Part shown: in pieces, positions 2,135 to 7,071 of the stretch
Position numbering within the stretch: position 1 is the first letter of the stretch
Layout of the letters: each line of letters opens with the position of its first letter
NCBI RefSeq assembly: GCF_002797755.1
Contig: NZ_PGFI01000011.1
Span: forward strand, 248,001 to 312,000
Source of the DNA: Brevirhabdus pacifica
Lineage (GTDB): Bacteria; Pseudomonadota; Alphaproteobacteria; Rhodobacterales; Rhodobacteraceae
Length of the DNA stretch: 64,000 nt
Direction of reading: 5' to 3'
The notes under the pieces: generated by a model
Database searches by the model: none
What the model saw: the letters and a program-made list of their open reading frames with translations, nothing else
Told to the model about the DNA's origin: nothing
Position numbers and translations under genes: made by a program

Positions 2135-2290
2135 ATTTACCCTCCGATGACGCCGCGTCCCGATTGAGCGGTGCAGACGCCTTGTCTACCGTTCGCAAAA
2201 ATTTGGCAACATCCGCCGGGTCGCGTCGACGCGCGGCTCGGTCCCGCCGGGGCGCCGGGATGTTTCGCAATGAATTGGAGAACGCATCAC

Positions 2291-4018
2291 ATGGCCTACC
2301 GCGCACCCGTGACGGATTACCAATACATCCTGGACCACGTCGTGGATTTTCCCCTGCTGTCCGACACCGAGCGTTTCGGCGACGCGACCTCCGAGACCAG
2401 CCTTGCGATCATCTCGGAAGCCGGCCGCCTGTGCGAGGAGGTCCTGGCCCCCCTTCAGCGAGAGGGTGACCTGCACCCCGCACACCTGGAAAACGGCGTC
2501 GTGCGCACCTCGCCCGGATTCGCCGAAGGCTATGCCGCAGTGGCCGAGGGCGGCTGGGTCGGCATCTCCGCCCCTGAGGAATATGGCGGCATGGGCCTGC
2601 CGCTGGCGATCACCAGCGTCGTCAACGACATGATGTCCTCGGCCTGCCTGGCGTTGCAGCTGAACCCGCTGATGACCCAGGGCCAGATCGAGGCGCTGGA
2701 GCATCACGCATCGGACGAGATCAAGCGGGTCTACCTGCCCCGGCTGATCTCGGGCGAATGGTCGGGCACGATGAACCTGACAGAGCCGCAGGCCGGTTCG
2801 GACGTGGGCGCCCTGCGCAGCCGCGCCGTCGACAATGGCGACGGCAGCTTTGCGATCACCGGGCAGAAGATCTTCATCAGCTGGGGCGACAACGACTTCA
2901 CCGGCAACGTCTGCCATCTGGTGCTGGCCCGTCTGCCGGGCGCGCCCGAGGGCACCCGCGGCATCGGCCTTTTCATGGTGCCCAAGCGCATCCCCGATGC
3001 CGAGGGTCAGCCCGGCGCAGCCAACAGCCTGCGGGTCGTCTCGCTCGAGCACAAGATGGGGCTGCACGGCTCGCCGACGGCGGTGATGGAATTCGACGGC
3101 GCCACCGGCTGGATGATCGGAGAGCCGAACAAGGGCATGGCGGCCATGTTCACCATGATGAACAACGCCCGGCTGGGCGTCGGCCTGCAAGGGATCGGCG
3201 TGGCCGAGGGGGCATATCAGCACGCCCTGGCCCACGCGCTGGAACGGCGCCAGGGGCGCACCCCGCTGGGTGACGGTGCCGGACCCATCGCCGATCACGC
3301 CGACGTCCGCCGGATGCTGATGCAGATGAAGGCCGAGGTTTTCGGCGCCCGGGCGATTGCCCTCGGCTGCGCCGTCTCGGCCGACATGGCGCGGGCCACC
3401 GGCAAGCCCGAATGGCGCGACCGCGCCGCCTTCCTGACCCCCATCGCCAAGGCTTTCGGCACCGATATCGGCGTCGAGGTCTCGCAGATGGGGATCCAGG
3501 TTCACGGCGGCATGGGCTACATCGAGGAAACGGGCGCCAGCCAATACCTGCGCGATGTCCGCGTCACCGCGATCTACGAGGGAACGAACGGCATCCAGGC
3601 GATGGACCTGGTCGGGCGCAAGCTGGCCGACGGCGGCGAGGCCGCGACCCGGTTGCTGGATGACATCGAGGCCTGCGCCGAGGGGGCGCGCGCCGACATG
3701 CCCGAGCTGGCCGAGCCGATCTGGCAAGCCGCCGAGAATCTGCGCGAGGCCTGCGACTGGCTGGTCGCGCGCGAAGATCTCAACGACCGTTTCGCGGGCG
3801 CCACGTCCTTCCTGCGGGCCTTTGCCCGGGTGCTGGGGGCCTGTGCCCACCTGCGCGCTGCGATGGCCGAGAAGGCCCAGGGAGAGGCCGGCCCGCGCCG
3901 GGCCCTGGCGCGGTTCTACGTCGATCGGCTGTTGCCGGAGGCCGCAAGCCTCTGTGTGCAGGCGACGCGCGGGGCGGGTGACCTTTACGGGCTCAGCCAC
4001 GAGGAACTGGCGGGCTGA
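2291..4018 (+). CDS. Acyl-CoA dehydrogenase (DmdC-like, long C-terminal extension)
   Basis: 575 residues. It is a FAD-dependent dehydrogenase of an acyl-CoA thioester that passes electrons to ETF. The N-terminus (MAYRAPVTDYQYILDHV) and the extra C-terminal domain are typical of the about 590-residue subgroup that includes 3-methylmercaptopropionyl-CoA dehydrogenase DmdC. NLTEPQAGSDVGALRSRA is the flavin-binding signature. IYEGTNGIQA carries the likely catalytic base, Glu430. The substrate cannot be decided from sequence: fatty acyl-CoA and MMPA-CoA are both possible, and no dmdB or dmdD lies nearby. The start at 2291 is where family similarity begins, although the frame is open further upstream. 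Confidence 0.9.
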   Translation: MAYRAPVTDYQYILDHVVDFPLLSDTERFGDATSETSLAIISEAGRLCEEVLAPLQREGDLHPAHLENGVVRTSPGFAEGYAAVAEGGWVGISAPEEYGGMGLPLAITSVVNDMMSSACLALQLNPLMTQGQIEALEHHASDEIKRVYLPRLISGEWSGTMNLTEPQAGSDVGALRSRAVDNGDGSFAITGQKIFISWGDNDFTGNVCHLVLARLPGAPEGTRGIGLFMVPKRIPDAEGQPGAANSLRVVSLEHKMGLHGSPTAVMEFDGATGWMIGEPNKGMAAMFTMMNNARLGVGLQGIGVAEGAYQHALAHALERRQGRTPLGDGAGPIADHADVRRMLMQMKAEVFGARAIALGCAVSADMARATGKPEWRDRAAFLTPIAKAFGTDIGVEVSQMGIQVHGGMGYIEETGASQYLRDVRVTAIYEGTNGIQAMDLVGRKLADGGEAATRLLDDIEACAEGARADMPELAEPIWQAAENLREACDWLVAREDLNDRFAGATSFLRAFARVLGACAHLRAAMAEKAQGEAGPRRALARFYVDRLLPEAASLCVQATRGAGDLYGLSHEELAG

Positions 4019-4183
4019 TCCGGGCGGGCACCGGCTGGGGGGGCAACCGGGCGGTCCGCGCCCTGTCACCCGTTGGCCGCGCCCGCGCCCCTGCGCCGAT
4101 ATGCGCATCATGCGGGGCGTGACACCCCCGGATTTTTTCAGTATCTGCTGACCAACTCAAACAACGCCAGACGGAGTTTCGAC

Positions 4184-4318
4184 ATGGCCGAACACAAGCA
4201 CGGCACGATGGACATCACGACCCAGGAAAAGACCTTCGAAGGGTTCGTGAAGATCACCATTCGCATGGTCATCGCGATCATCGTTGCGCTGATCCTTCTC
4301 GCACTTATAAACGGCTGA
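4184..4318 (+). CDS. aa3-type cytochrome c oxidase subunit IV
   Basis: A 44-residue protein starting MAEHKHGTMDITTQEKTF, with a soluble N-terminus and one transmembrane helix (about 24-43). This is the small bacterial aa3 oxidase subunit IV known from Paracoccus and Rhodobacter; in the Paracoccus crystal structure it is a single helix bound to subunits I-III, and it is dispensable for activity. The main oxidase subunits are not in this window, which is usual for these genomes. A lipoprotein gene follows 34 bp downstream on the same strand, so the two may be cotranscribed. Confidence 0.9.
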   Translation: MAEHKHGTMDITTQEKTFEGFVKITIRMVIAIIVALILLALING

Positions 4319-4352
4319 GAAAGCCGGCCATAACAAACAGCAGCGAGGCAGA

Positions 4353-4946
4353 ATGCTCAGAACGATCCTTCCGTTGGTAACCATTCTTTTCCTCGCCGCC
4401 TGTGGCGCCGATAATATCTATGCCTCGGACGAGGCGGTGGCACGCGCAGCCTTCGTCAATCCCGAGCCGGCCTCGATCACGCTGGTGACGGCGATCAACA
4501 ACCGCTCGGGCGAGGGCGGGCATACGGCGGTGATCGTGAACGGCAGCCAGCAGGTGCTGTGGGATCCCGCCGGGACCTGGTATCACCGCAGCGCGCCCGA
4601 GCGTCATGACCTGCACTACGGTTTCACCAACACGCTGCGCGAGTTCTTCTACGACTATCACGCGCGGGAAACCTTCCACCTGGTGGTGCAGGAGGTCCCG
4701 GTGACCCGGGCCGTCGCGGACCAGGCGATCCGCGCCTTTGCGGCCCAGGGGGCGGCACCGAAATCCTTCTGTTCGAACTATACCAGCAAGGCGCTGCGCA
4801 CCGTTCCGGGGTTCGAGAACATGCCGGTCAGCTTTTTCCCGAAGACGACGATGAACGCCTTTGCCCAACTGCCGGGCGTGAAGACGCGCAAGATCTATGA
4901 CGACGATTCGGACAACAACAAGTCCAAGCTGGCGGCGGGCAACTGA
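4353..4946 (+). CDS. Lipoprotein, possible permuted papain-like (NlpC/P60) fold
   Basis: 197 residues. The first 17 residues form a lipoprotein signal ending in the lipobox LAAC (Cys17), so the mature protein should be membrane-anchored. I do not recognise a named family. GEGGHTAVIVNG (His57), then LWDPAGTW (Asp71), and later KSFCSNYTSKAL (Cys140) give a His-first, Cys-last order. That order is seen in permuted NlpC/P60-LRAT-type enzymes, which suggests a cysteine hydrolase or acyltransferase; this is inference. The C-terminus is an acidic and lysine-rich tail. The gene follows the small oxidase subunit by 34 bp and ends before a strong terminator. Confidence 0.85.
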   Translation: MLRTILPLVTILFLAACGADNIYASDEAVARAAFVNPEPASITLVTAINNRSGEGGHTAVIVNGSQQVLWDPAGTWYHRSAPERHDLHYGFTNTLREFFYDYHARETFHLVVQEVPVTRAVADQAIRAFAAQGAAPKSFCSNYTSKALRTVPGFENMPVSFFPKTTMNAFAQLPGVKTRKIYDDDSDNNKSKLAAGN

Positions 4947-4978
4947 CCCGGCCTCTACCGCGTTACGGAAACTGACCG

Positions 4979-5004
4979 AAGGCCGCGCCCAGCGCGGCCT
5001 TTTT
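4979..5004 (+). terminator. Rho-independent terminator after the lipoprotein gene
   Basis: An 8-bp GC stem, GGCCGCGC/GCGCGGCC, extended by A-T pairs, has a 3-nt loop and is followed by five T. It lies 32 bp after the stop codon, a textbook intrinsic terminator for the subunit IV-lipoprotein unit. Confidence 0.85.
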
Positions 5005-5077
5005 CATTGCCGGTTTTGTTGCCGGCAGTGCAGTGCATCCGGCTCCGGCACTGGCCAGAACGCCAATGCCGTCCCCC

Positions 5078-5407
5078 TCAGCCCAGCAGCCACAGCATGG
5101 TGTAAAGCGTCGCCGCCCCCGCGGTGATCGAGGCCAGCACGTTGCGCGTCGTCAGGCCCACGCCCAGGGTCGCGGCAGCGGCCAGGATGCGCGGCAGGTC
5201 GGTCGCGCCGCCCGTTGCCTGCGGCCACACGACCAGCGGCGCCACCAGCCCCGGCATCACCGCCACGGCCGTGTAACGCAGGTGGCGCAGGGCCCAGTCG
5301 GGCAGACGCCGGTTGCCGATCAGCCCCAGAAAGGAAAACCGGATCAGAAAGGTGCCGGACCCCAGCGCCACGATGATCAGCCAGATGGTCGCGTCGGAAT
5401 AGTTCAT
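5078..5407 (-). CDS. azlD: AzlD family branched-chain amino-acid export subunit
   Basis: 109 residues, almost wholly hydrophobic, with about four membrane segments. LRYTAVAVMPGLVAPLVV and RNVLASITAGAATLYTMLWL are typical of AzlD. AzlD works with AzlC as an inner-membrane exporter of branched-chain amino acids (BrnFE type). The start at ATG 5405-5407 overlaps the azlC stop in an ATGA, which fixes the reading and implies coupled translation. A longer open frame exists upstream but runs inside azlC. Confidence 0.88.
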   Translation of the reverse strand: MNYSDATIWLIIVALGSGTFLIRFSFLGLIGNRRLPDWALRHLRYTAVAVMPGLVAPLVVWPQATGGATDLPRILAAAATLGVGLTTRNVLASITAGAATLYTMLWLLG

Positions 5408-6129
5408 GCCTTCGTCTCCTTGCGCCGGGCGGCGCGGCGGGTCGTCTGCCGCTCGATCTCGGCGCCGACCATCATCGCCAGCGCGGCGGCGATCAGCAGG
5501 CCGCTGTTGTAGGGCAGGAAACTGAGGCTCAGCGCCACCGCGATTGACACCAGAGCCGCTCCCACATGGGCGAAGGTGCGCAGCGCCGGTGCGATGATCG
5601 CGAGGAAGGTGATAGGCACCGCGAAATCCAGCGCCCAAGCCTCGGGGATCCGTGCGCCCACCGCCGCGCCGACATAGGTCGCCACGTACCATGGAATGCA
5701 GACGGGGGTCATCGTGCCGAAGAAATAGACCACCCGGTCGCGCACGCTCATCTCGGGGCGCTTTTCATATTCCGCGATCGAGACGGCATAGCTTTGATCG
5801 ACCAGGAAATAGGCGGCAAGCGCGCGCTGCCACAGGGGCGCCGCGCCGAGGTAGGGCGTCAGCGAGGCCGAGTACATCGCCATGCGCATGTTGACCGCCA
5901 GCGCGGTCGCCAGCACCATCAGCACCGGCGCGTTGTCGGTCATCAGCTGAAGCGCCGCGAATTGCGACGCCCCCGCGATCACCAGCACCGAAAAGCCCAT
6001 CACCTTGAGAAGATCAAGCCCGGCTTCGGTCGCCACCACCCCGAAAAGCAGGGCGAACGGCACCACTACAAGAAGAAACGGGGCCCCGTTTCTGAAGCCC
6101 CTCCAAAAGTGGTCTCGCGATCTGGACAT
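5404..6129 (-). CDS. azlC: AzlC family branched-chain amino-acid export permease
   Basis: 241 residues. After a short basic N-terminus (MSRSRDHFWRGFRNGAPFLL) come several hydrophobic helices. FSVLVIAGASQFAALQLM and VDQSYAVSIAEYEKRPE are AzlC/BrnF signatures. This is the large subunit of the two-component exporter with AzlD, whose gene overlaps by four bases. It is divergent from fdhD across a 72-bp spacer that must hold both promoters. Confidence 0.9.
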   Translation of the reverse strand: MSRSRDHFWRGFRNGAPFLLVVVPFALLFGVVATEAGLDLLKVMGFSVLVIAGASQFAALQLMTDNAPVLMVLATALAVNMRMAMYSASLTPYLGAAPLWQRALAAYFLVDQSYAVSIAEYEKRPEMSVRDRVVYFFGTMTPVCIPWYVATYVGAAVGARIPEAWALDFAVPITFLAIIAPALRTFAHVGAALVSIAVALSLSFLPYNSGLLIAAALAMMVGAEIERQTTRRAARRKETKA

Positions 6130-6201
6130 AGGCTCTTCCCTGCTTCAGTCTCCGCCAGCAATAGCCATCCTGACCACCGGCGAAAAGGCCAGAAACCAGC
6201 C

Positions 6202-7071
6202 ATGACACAGGATATCCTGATCGGACCGGACCCCGACAACCCGCGCCTGACGCGGCCCGTCGAGGGGCTGGACCACACCGGCGCTGCCGTCACGCTGAAG
6301 GTGGTCGAGGAACGGCCGCTGACGATCTTCCTCAACAGCCGCGAGATCGTCACCGCCATGACCATCGGGGATTACCCCGAATATCTGGCCCTTGGCTTCC
6401 TGACCAACCAGAACATGCTGCGCGCCGATGACGAGGTCACCGGCATCGATTATGACGAAGAGCTGGAGACCGTCGTTGTGCGTACCGCGGTCGAGACCGA
6501 CCACGAGGAAAAGCTTCAGAAGAAGACCCGCACCTCGGGCTGCGCCGTGGGCACGGTCTTCGGCGACATGATGGAGGGGCTTGAAGGGCTCAGCCTGCCG
6601 GCGACGCCGGTCCGCAGCTCATGGCTCTATGCGCTGGCGCGGCAGATCAACACCATGCCCAGCCTCTACCTCGAGGCGGGTGCCATCCATGGCAGTGTGC
6701 TGTGCCACCAGGACCAGCCGCTGGTCTACATGGAAGATGTCGGCCGCCACAACGCCGTGGACAAGATCGCGGGCTGGATGCGGGCGACCGGCACGGATCC
6801 GGCCGACAAGATCCTCTACACCACCGGGCGCCTGACATCCGAGATGGTGATCAAGACCGCGATGATGGGCATCCCGGTGCTGGCCTCGCGCTCGGGCTTC
6901 ACCGCCTGGGGGGTCGAGATCGCGCGCCAGGTCGGCTTGACGGTGATCGGCCGGATGCGCGGTCAACGCTTTGTCTGCCTCAGCGGGCAGGAACGCCTGA
7001 TCCTCGACGCCGACCCCGCGACGGTCGCGCCAGAGGATCGCCGCTCGGGCCGTAAGGGTGCGGGTGCATGA
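6202..7071 (+). CDS. fdhD: Formate dehydrogenase accessory sulfurtransferase FdhD
   Basis: 289 residues. FdhD moves sulfur from a cysteine desulfurase to the molybdenum cofactor before its insertion into formate dehydrogenase. Family blocks visible: RPLTIFLNSREIVTAMTIGD, EDVGRHNAVDKIAGW, ILYTTGRLTSEMVIKTAMMG. The swivel-loop motif is reduced to SGCAVG (Cys114), with Gly where many relatives have the second Cys of CxxC. The start MTQDIL at 6202 is where similarity begins. It is the first gene of fdhD-mobA-mobB-moeA, and its stop overlaps the mobA start in an ATGA. Confidence 0.93.
   Translation: MTQDILIGPDPDNPRLTRPVEGLDHTGAAVTLKVVEERPLTIFLNSREIVTAMTIGDYPEYLALGFLTNQNMLRADDEVTGIDYDEELETVVVRTAVETDHEEKLQKKTRTSGCAVGTVFGDMMEGLEGLSLPATPVRSSWLYALARQINTMPSLYLEAGAIHGSVLCHQDQPLVYMEDVGRHNAVDKIAGWMRATGTDPADKILYTTGRLTSEMVIKTAMMGIPVLASRSGFTAWGVEIARQVGLTVIGRMRGQRFVCLSGQERLILDADPATVAPEDRRSGRKGAGA

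Follow-up and report, generated by a model that had tools for sequence, protein, structure and literature searches.

Unpermuted NlpC/P60 enzymes usually act as amidases or peptidases on peptidoglycan. The characterised permuted members of this papain-like superfamily are instead described as acting on or binding lipids and as having hydrophobic pockets (PMC3142127, PMC12994826). Lnb (PF13387, Lnb_N, formerly DUF4105), the lipoprotein N-acyltransferase of Bacteroides, is reported to have a permuted NlpC/P60 core, and the same source describes Tox-Act1 as a phospholipase (PMC12994826). In Staphylococcus aureus, the N-acylation of lipoproteins requires LnsA, an exported permuted NlpC/P60 protein of 189 amino acids (PMC7387801). 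Lipoprotein modification is also connected with copper. In the Lit2/Lgt2 operons of Listeria and Enterococcus, as described in PMC8275575, a lipoprotein-modifying gene (lit2) and a second lgt (lgt2) sit with copper resistance genes on mobile DNA, Lit being a membrane enzyme of a fold unseen before. In Escherichia coli, copper is reported to impair lipoprotein acylation and block maturation in a way that resembles Lgt depletion, and the cutE locus to harbour lnt (PMC6538781); L,D-transpeptidases are reported to be inhibited by copper as well (PMC8263019).

Here we analysed a 64,000-nucleotide stretch of the Brevirhabdus pacifica genome (contig NZ_PGFI01000011.1, positions 248,001–312,000; hereafter the window), in which a small lipoprotein gene follows the gene for subunit IV of an aa3-type cytochrome c oxidase (Table 1). 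Its product resembles LnsA by description, being small, exported and probably of the permuted NlpC/P60 fold, but LnsA requires a membrane partner, LnsB (PMC7387801). Lnb_N matches (n = 30) lie in open frames of 330–830 codons, whereas the window protein is a free-standing lipoprotein of 197 amino acids. Its closest structural match, TseH (6v98), is a type VI secretion effector injected as an antibacterial, in contrast to a lipoprotein whose gene is present nearly family-wide beside oxidase or copper genes. The enzymes of the YaeF/YiiX type (PF05708, Peptidase_C92; 2if6 and 3kw0) share the fold and the His-acid-Cys order, but we found no significant sequence similarity to them, and the window family differs in consisting of lipoproteins, found here only in Rhodobacteraceae.

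Table 1 Features of the lipoprotein locus (window coordinates; protein residues numbered from the start of the lipoprotein).
Feature	Position	Strand	Basis or remark
Terminator-like hairpin and T-tract in the acyl-CoA dehydrogenase/subunit IV gap	4113–4130	+	Consensus scan, weak
aa3-type cytochrome c oxidase subunit IV (COX4_pro_2), 44 aa	4184–4318	+	PF07835
Lipoprotein gene, 197 aa	4353–4946	+	Predicted permuted papain-like (NlpC/P60) fold
Lipoprotein signal peptide, lipobox LAAC at 14–17, C17	4353–4403	+	Sequence
Codon of candidate catalytic His57	4521–4523	+	In predicted strand 55–63
Codon of candidate third residue Asp71	4563–4565	+	Just past predicted strand 67–70
Codon of candidate nucleophile Cys140	4770–4772	+	Near N-terminal end of predicted helix 137–148
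Intrinsic terminator 3′ of the lipoprotein gene	4978–5003, core 4981–4999	+	Direct folding

Translation of the gene bore out the lipoprotein with a Cys17 lipobox proposed in the preliminary description, and C17 is present in all 82 aligned homologues, of which 24 also match the LPAM_1 model at E ≤ 1. The protein has two cysteines only, C17 and C140, and no CxxC motif; the candidate residues lie in the contexts GGHTAV (H57), LWDPAG (D71) and SFCSNYTSKAL (C140). The upstream gene, placed in the same account at a distance of 34 bp, indeed ends 34 nt before the lipoprotein gene and encodes a member of PF07835 (E 4.3e-14, 52.9 bits against a cut-off of 22). The common terminator claimed for the two genes also stands: direct folding revealed a strong hairpin 3′ of the lipoprotein gene (−24.9 kcal/mol, z −5.22, none of 200 shuffles as good), which a consensus scan of positions 4019–5080 had missed, and that scan reported no terminator in the gap between the genes. 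Its sole site lies 5′ of the pair and is weak (one site against a shuffle mean of 1.0); this hairpin would make the pair a transcription unit of its own. By its position, the lipoprotein gene is probably cotranscribed with that of subunit IV.

The window protein matched no Pfam family at E ≤ 10, Peptidase_C92 and Lnb_N included, and came near the cut-off of no NCBIfam family, a CopZ match (E 0.13, 12.7 bits against a cut-off of 85) being due to chance. A profile search of the PDB found no relative (best E 0.24, at the level of chance). When the 82 homologues were scanned with Pfam, lipoprotein signal models recurred and the remaining matches were weak and scattered. Among the 25 of 29 families listed for these homologues, neither Peptidase_C92 nor Lnb_N nor a peptidoglycan-binding domain appeared, and DUF6491 (seven members, best E 0.021) and HMA (three members, 0.14) were taken as chance. 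Searches made without locus tags or accessions found no published description of the family among the titles and abstract openings listed.

The gene is nevertheless widespread. A match was present in 337 of 394 Rhodobacteraceae genomes, each of a different genus, and in 146 of 149 Rhodobacterales genomes, all listed as Rhodobacteraceae; in a class-level sample, with up to eight candidates per genome scored in the matches listed, five of 385 genomes matched and all five were Rhodobacteraceae. A deeper profile again found none in the 57 Rhodobacteraceae genomes without a match. The family is thus near-universal in Rhodobacteraceae (in the GTDB sense) and was found only there in the genomes searched, and it is dispensable, since 57 of the 394 genomes are without the gene. 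In four genomes (G811, G848, G120 and G797) the match holds one in-frame stop codon, suggesting gene loss in some lineages. The genome of the window itself gave one further match, which was weak (E 0.07) and was set aside. The same genome has no Lnb_N match at E ≤ 1e-4; two other Rhodobacteraceae genomes, G075 and G076, also hold a strong match to this domain.

No row of the 82-row alignment departs from H57 or C140, and 81 rows have aspartate at position 71; the 14 invariant columns, in an alignment with a mean column identity of 57%, include H57, D86, G90, H103, R105, G133, C140 and P163, together with P72 and G74. A larger alignment, with copies from copper islands (see below) among its 103 rows (96 distinct), has H57, H103 and C140 in every row and D71 in 102, the remaining row having asparagine. 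The His57-Asp71-Cys140 order pointed out earlier is real, its non-conservation in homologues was not seen, and the conservation of the three residues is far from chance.

To predict the fold, we used an AlphaFold2 model of the window protein based on the 82-row alignment (pLDDT 92.3, pTM 0.86), together with a model (pLDDT 91.5) of an island copy that shares 44% identity with the window protein. The first model places the three residues relative to secondary-structure elements as given in Table 1. Foldseek found nothing significant in the PDB (best E 0.13); the Mediator subunits and other entries topping its list, with probabilities of at most 0.15, were taken as noise because a slower aligner ranked permuted papain-like enzymes clearly first. 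On this aligner's scale, where a Z of 8–9 is middling by its own note and one of about 8 can reflect a common arrangement, the window model (999 chains aligned) matched TseH with Z 8.6 (130 residues aligned, 3.7 Å), YiiX with 8.1 (125, 3.3 Å) and 3kw0 of Bacillus cereus with 6.8 (124, 3.7 Å), and the following row reached only 3.4. The island-copy model (992 chains aligned) again gave TseH (Z 9.0, 133 aligned, 4.0 Å), 3kw0 (6.8) and RID (6.8), YiiX being absent from its list. Its fourth row, a DUF862 deSUMOylase that is also of a permuted fold, reached Z 3.7 and so did not stand apart from unrelated rows at 3.5. PMC12994826 and PMC3142127 describe TseH and RID as permuted.

The spacing of the residues agrees with these matches. 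His and acid are 14 positions apart in the window protein, compared with 15 in the solved BcPPNE (His49 and Glu64; PMC3142127), and the His-to-Cys distance of 83 lies within the 79–85 of the five out of eight Peptidase_C92 sequences in which the pattern located the cysteine. Profile–profile alignment with hhalign was not significant, either against the eight Peptidase_C92 sequences (probability below 0.2%) or against Lnb_N (0.5–1.4%, p 0.037–0.086), represented by 33 sequences and later by 28, without L172, L177, L185, L186 and L150. The local Lnb_N alignment placed C140 on the conserved cysteine, and the global and low-threshold alignments placed H57 on the conserved histidine as well; a claim of homology from these non-significant alignments was rejected, and they serve as a mapping only. 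The NlpC/P60 tyrosine is not clearly present in the window family, residue 132 being tyrosine in 46 and asparagine in 24 of 82 rows and glutamine in the window protein; in papain, Gln19 is reported to occupy the place of this tyrosine (PMC3142127). Because one superfamily alone came out on top for both models and the residue spacing agrees with it, the lipoprotein likely has a permuted NlpC/P60 (papain-like) fold. The likeness to permuted NlpC/P60 and LRAT enzymes suspected in the preliminary description thus gained support from the predicted structures, with TseH, YiiX and 3kw0 as the best matches, and none from profile searches of Pfam and the PDB.

We then examined the pairing with subunit IV, from which a link to respiration had been suggested if gene order proved conserved. 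The subunit IV gene lies directly upstream on the same strand at 84 of 99 loci, some of them duplicates. Twelve of the other 15 were sorted as island copies and three were not, so that the adjacency holds at 84 of 87 loci outside islands. The pair is itself part of a larger conserved block, which in the window spans positions 2228–7071 and whose order, common to many loci, is acyl-CoA dehydrogenase, an MBL-fold protein, subunit IV, the lipoprotein, AzlD/AzlC and FdhD; the MBL-fold gene is absent from the gap at 4019–4183 of the window. The megaplasmid of Ruegeria sp. TM1040 has the ordinary arrangement, with subunit IV, a 'hypothetical protein', AzlD, AzlC and FdhD.

There is an even chance, in our estimate, that the lipoprotein gene adjoins subunit IV merely through conservation of this whole block, for reasons unrelated to respiration; such an origin of the adjacency is compatible with any reading of the protein's function. 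Consistent with it, 51 subunit-IV-linked loci (of 60 with longer flanks) keep the MBL-fold gene in 45 cases, the acyl-CoA dehydrogenase in 40, AzlD in 36, AzlC in 35 and FdhD in 15, and either partner can be lost alone: of the 57 genomes that lack the lipoprotein, 45 retain subunit IV, and two (G338 and G362) of seven lipoprotein-bearing genomes checked for PF07835 had no hit. The G338 locus retains both block and lipoprotein but has no subunit IV reading frame between the MBL-fold gene and the lipoprotein gene, and in another of the seven genomes (G264) PF07835 lies on a different contig from the lipoprotein. On the other hand, the pair persists at three loci (L057, L091 and L096) whose 2.5-kb flanks contain none of the seven block genes looked for, and four genomes (G169, G198, G201 and G221) have duplicate lipoprotein genes that adjoin subunit IV. 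G198 and G221 have one copy on either side of subunit IV, one of the G221 copies being a weak partial match. Conservation of the pairing is thus established, while its value as proof of a respiratory function is weakened by the block, by the losses of single partners and by copies found in islands, which point away from a respiratory role.

More than one lipoprotein match occurred in 22 of the 337 genomes, some of these being tandem copies or fragments. We examined ten second copies (L187–L196) with 16–17 kb around each; at L190 and L194–L196 the simple gene caller had missed the lipoprotein gene, which was placed by coordinates. Clustering resolved two types of copper-resistance island, with four (type I) and six (type II) loci, whose genes were named from Pfam matches of one representative per type (L187 and L191) and of a regulator from L194. 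Type I islands encode cytochromes c, a ferric-reductase-like protein, PBP2, a ScsC-like DsbA, DUF411, a multicopper oxidase, a redoxin, two SCO1 proteins, PCuAC and LNT, the LNT cluster being present in three of the four loci and outside or absent from the stretch in L189. Type II islands encode two heavy-metal P-type ATPases, LGT (in six of six loci), DUF302, an EF-hand protein, two L,D-transpeptidases, DsbB, a multicopper oxidase, DUF305, a glutaredoxin/MauE protein and a MerR regulator.

Such islands also travel on plasmids. Public plasmid sequences held the lipoprotein gene in 39 records, 31 of them predicted to be conjugative, and wherever these are annotated it is labelled 'hypothetical protein'. 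Six of nine records inspected carry copper islands: type II with lgt in Dinoroseobacter shibae pDSHI03, Sagittula sp. P11 and Phaeobacter pGal_B134, and type I in Gemmobacter fulvus, Gemmobacter aquarius and Tabrizicola piscis, with lnt in both Gemmobacter plasmids and none within the stretch shown in the third. The G. fulvus record and L190 are evidently one plasmid. In all three type I plasmids the lipoprotein gene lies directly 5′ of the DUF411 gene on the same strand. The other three records were plasmid P2 of Sulfitobacter mediterraneus, the Ruegeria sp. TM1040 megaplasmid with its ordinary arrangement, and one without annotation. On P2 (L208) the lipoprotein gene directly follows DUF411, in the vicinity of genes for a cation exporter and an L,D-transpeptidase; this metal cluster is small, and Rieske (petA) and sterol desaturase family genes are close by.

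In maximum-likelihood trees, which were midpoint-rooted and of which the first had a bootstrap that had not settled, the type I copies formed one group and the type II copies another (bootstrap 100 each), in separate places among the subunit-IV-linked genes. These sequence trees suggest that copper islands have apparently captured copies of the lipoprotein twice, the direction, probably from chromosome to island, being read from the nesting of the groups. A third, independent capture on the Sulfitobacter plasmid was considered and rejected, that copy being sister to type II. Every one of the 16 rows assigned to islands, two of them (L035 and L089) by sequence alone, retains H57, D71, H103 and C140. 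This recruitment to copper islands is the most informative new fact about the family. Beside the copper genes at L187–L196, L200–L202 and L210–L212 lie spare envelope-building genes, namely lgt or lnt and those for L,D-transpeptidases, PBP2, an M23 peptidase and DsbA/DsbB. The islands look like kits of spare envelope enzymes, into which the lipoprotein would fit as a further cysteine enzyme.

Guided by these results and by the LnsA, Lnb and Lit2 precedents, we propose, at a little short of even likelihood, that the lipoprotein is a membrane-anchored envelope enzyme of permuted papain-like fold that performs thiol acyl chemistry on lipoproteins or phospholipids. The predicted fold, the His-Asp-Cys residues and the preference of permuted members for lipids together suggest a thiol enzyme working through an acyl-thioester. 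Cys140 would be the nucleophile, His57 the general base and Asp71 the residue that orients His57; an acyl-thioester would form on Cys140, with water, an alcohol or an amine as the acceptor. Fold and context would make the acyl groups of lipoproteins or phospholipids the likeliest substrates, and the protein may thereby tailor the lipid state of the envelope. With such a substrate the enzyme would matter under copper stress, and this would account for the apparently twofold capture of a copy by copper islands alongside a spare Lgt or Lnt. Computation backs the structural match, the conserved residues, the gene context and the two island clades; catalysis, acyl chemistry, substrate, localisation, co-transcription and the copper rationale we infer. 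Against the proposal stand the lack of significant sequence similarity to permuted NlpC/P60 families, the middling Z scores with nothing significant from Foldseek, the tyrosine that is not clearly present and the dispensability of the gene. The proximity to lgt or lnt may also be incidental, because the island neighbours include cytochromes, PBP2 and P-type ATPases that are unrelated to lipoproteins; in one of the three type I plasmids lnt is outside or absent from the stretch. A 102-kb plasmid of D. shibae, whose annotation includes many genes for the transport of copper and cobalt, is reported to have changed no copper resistance (PMC9426580), but it is none of the plasmids inspected here, and that result speaks neither way.

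The copper-related settings, oxidase subunit IV on the one hand and islands on the other, could also be explained by an accessory lipoprotein, a reused papain-like scaffold that holds copper through Cys140, His57 and perhaps His103 and helps to build or protect the copper enzyme cytochrome aa3, the island copies being spares. SCO1 in two copies, PCuAC, DUF411 and a multicopper oxidase in type I islands, P-type ATPases and a multicopper oxidase in type II, the invariance of H103 and C140, and the position directly before a same-strand DUF411 gene in three plasmids would all suit such a protein. We nevertheless consider it unlikely: the predicted fold and the His-acid-Cys spacing are those of an enzyme, C17 and C140 are the only cysteines of the window protein, which has no CxxC, and the occurrence of subunit IV in most genomes without the lipoprotein, like the two of seven lipoprotein-bearing genomes without PF07835, speaks against it too.

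Two further readings keep the fold and change the role. That the protein does no chemistry at all and serves in structure or binding, with a papain-like fold conserved for stability, seems improbable: the signature tyrosine is not conserved and profile similarity to active families is not significant, as this reading would have it, but H57 and C140 are unchanged in every one of 103 rows in a family with a mean column identity of 57% and 14 invariant columns. More improbable still is a peptidoglycan amidase or peptidase of which islands keep a spare copy as they do of other cell-wall enzymes. The L,D-transpeptidases, PBP2 and M23 peptidase of the islands would be its natural company, and copper inhibition is reported for the first of these (PMC8263019); the described permuted members, however, act on or bind lipids (PMC3142127, PMC12994826), and the 25 families listed for the 82 members, out of 29, include no peptidoglycan-binding domain.

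Returning to the proposed envelope thiol acyl-enzyme, its most specific form is doubtful but possible: a hitherto unnamed lipoprotein-tailoring enzyme of Rhodobacteraceae that transfers or removes acyl chains on other lipoproteins or phospholipids and was captured twice independently by islands because copper attacks lipoprotein maturation. If true, it would be to Alphaproteobacteria what the copper-linked Lit2/Lgt2 systems are to Firmicutes, with a different fold, the islands combining lgt or lnt with the lipoprotein where the Firmicutes operons have a membrane enzyme. The gene is present in 337 of 394 genomes of Rhodobacteraceae, one per genus, yet it belongs to no Pfam or NCBIfam family. 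Were it to encode a thiol acyl-enzyme acting on lipoproteins, it would represent a new branch of Gram-negative lipoprotein maturation and give a concrete reason for the presence of envelope-building genes in copper islands. With this family, the reason for the joint spread of lipoprotein acylation genes and copper resistance becomes testable in harmless aquatic bacteria.
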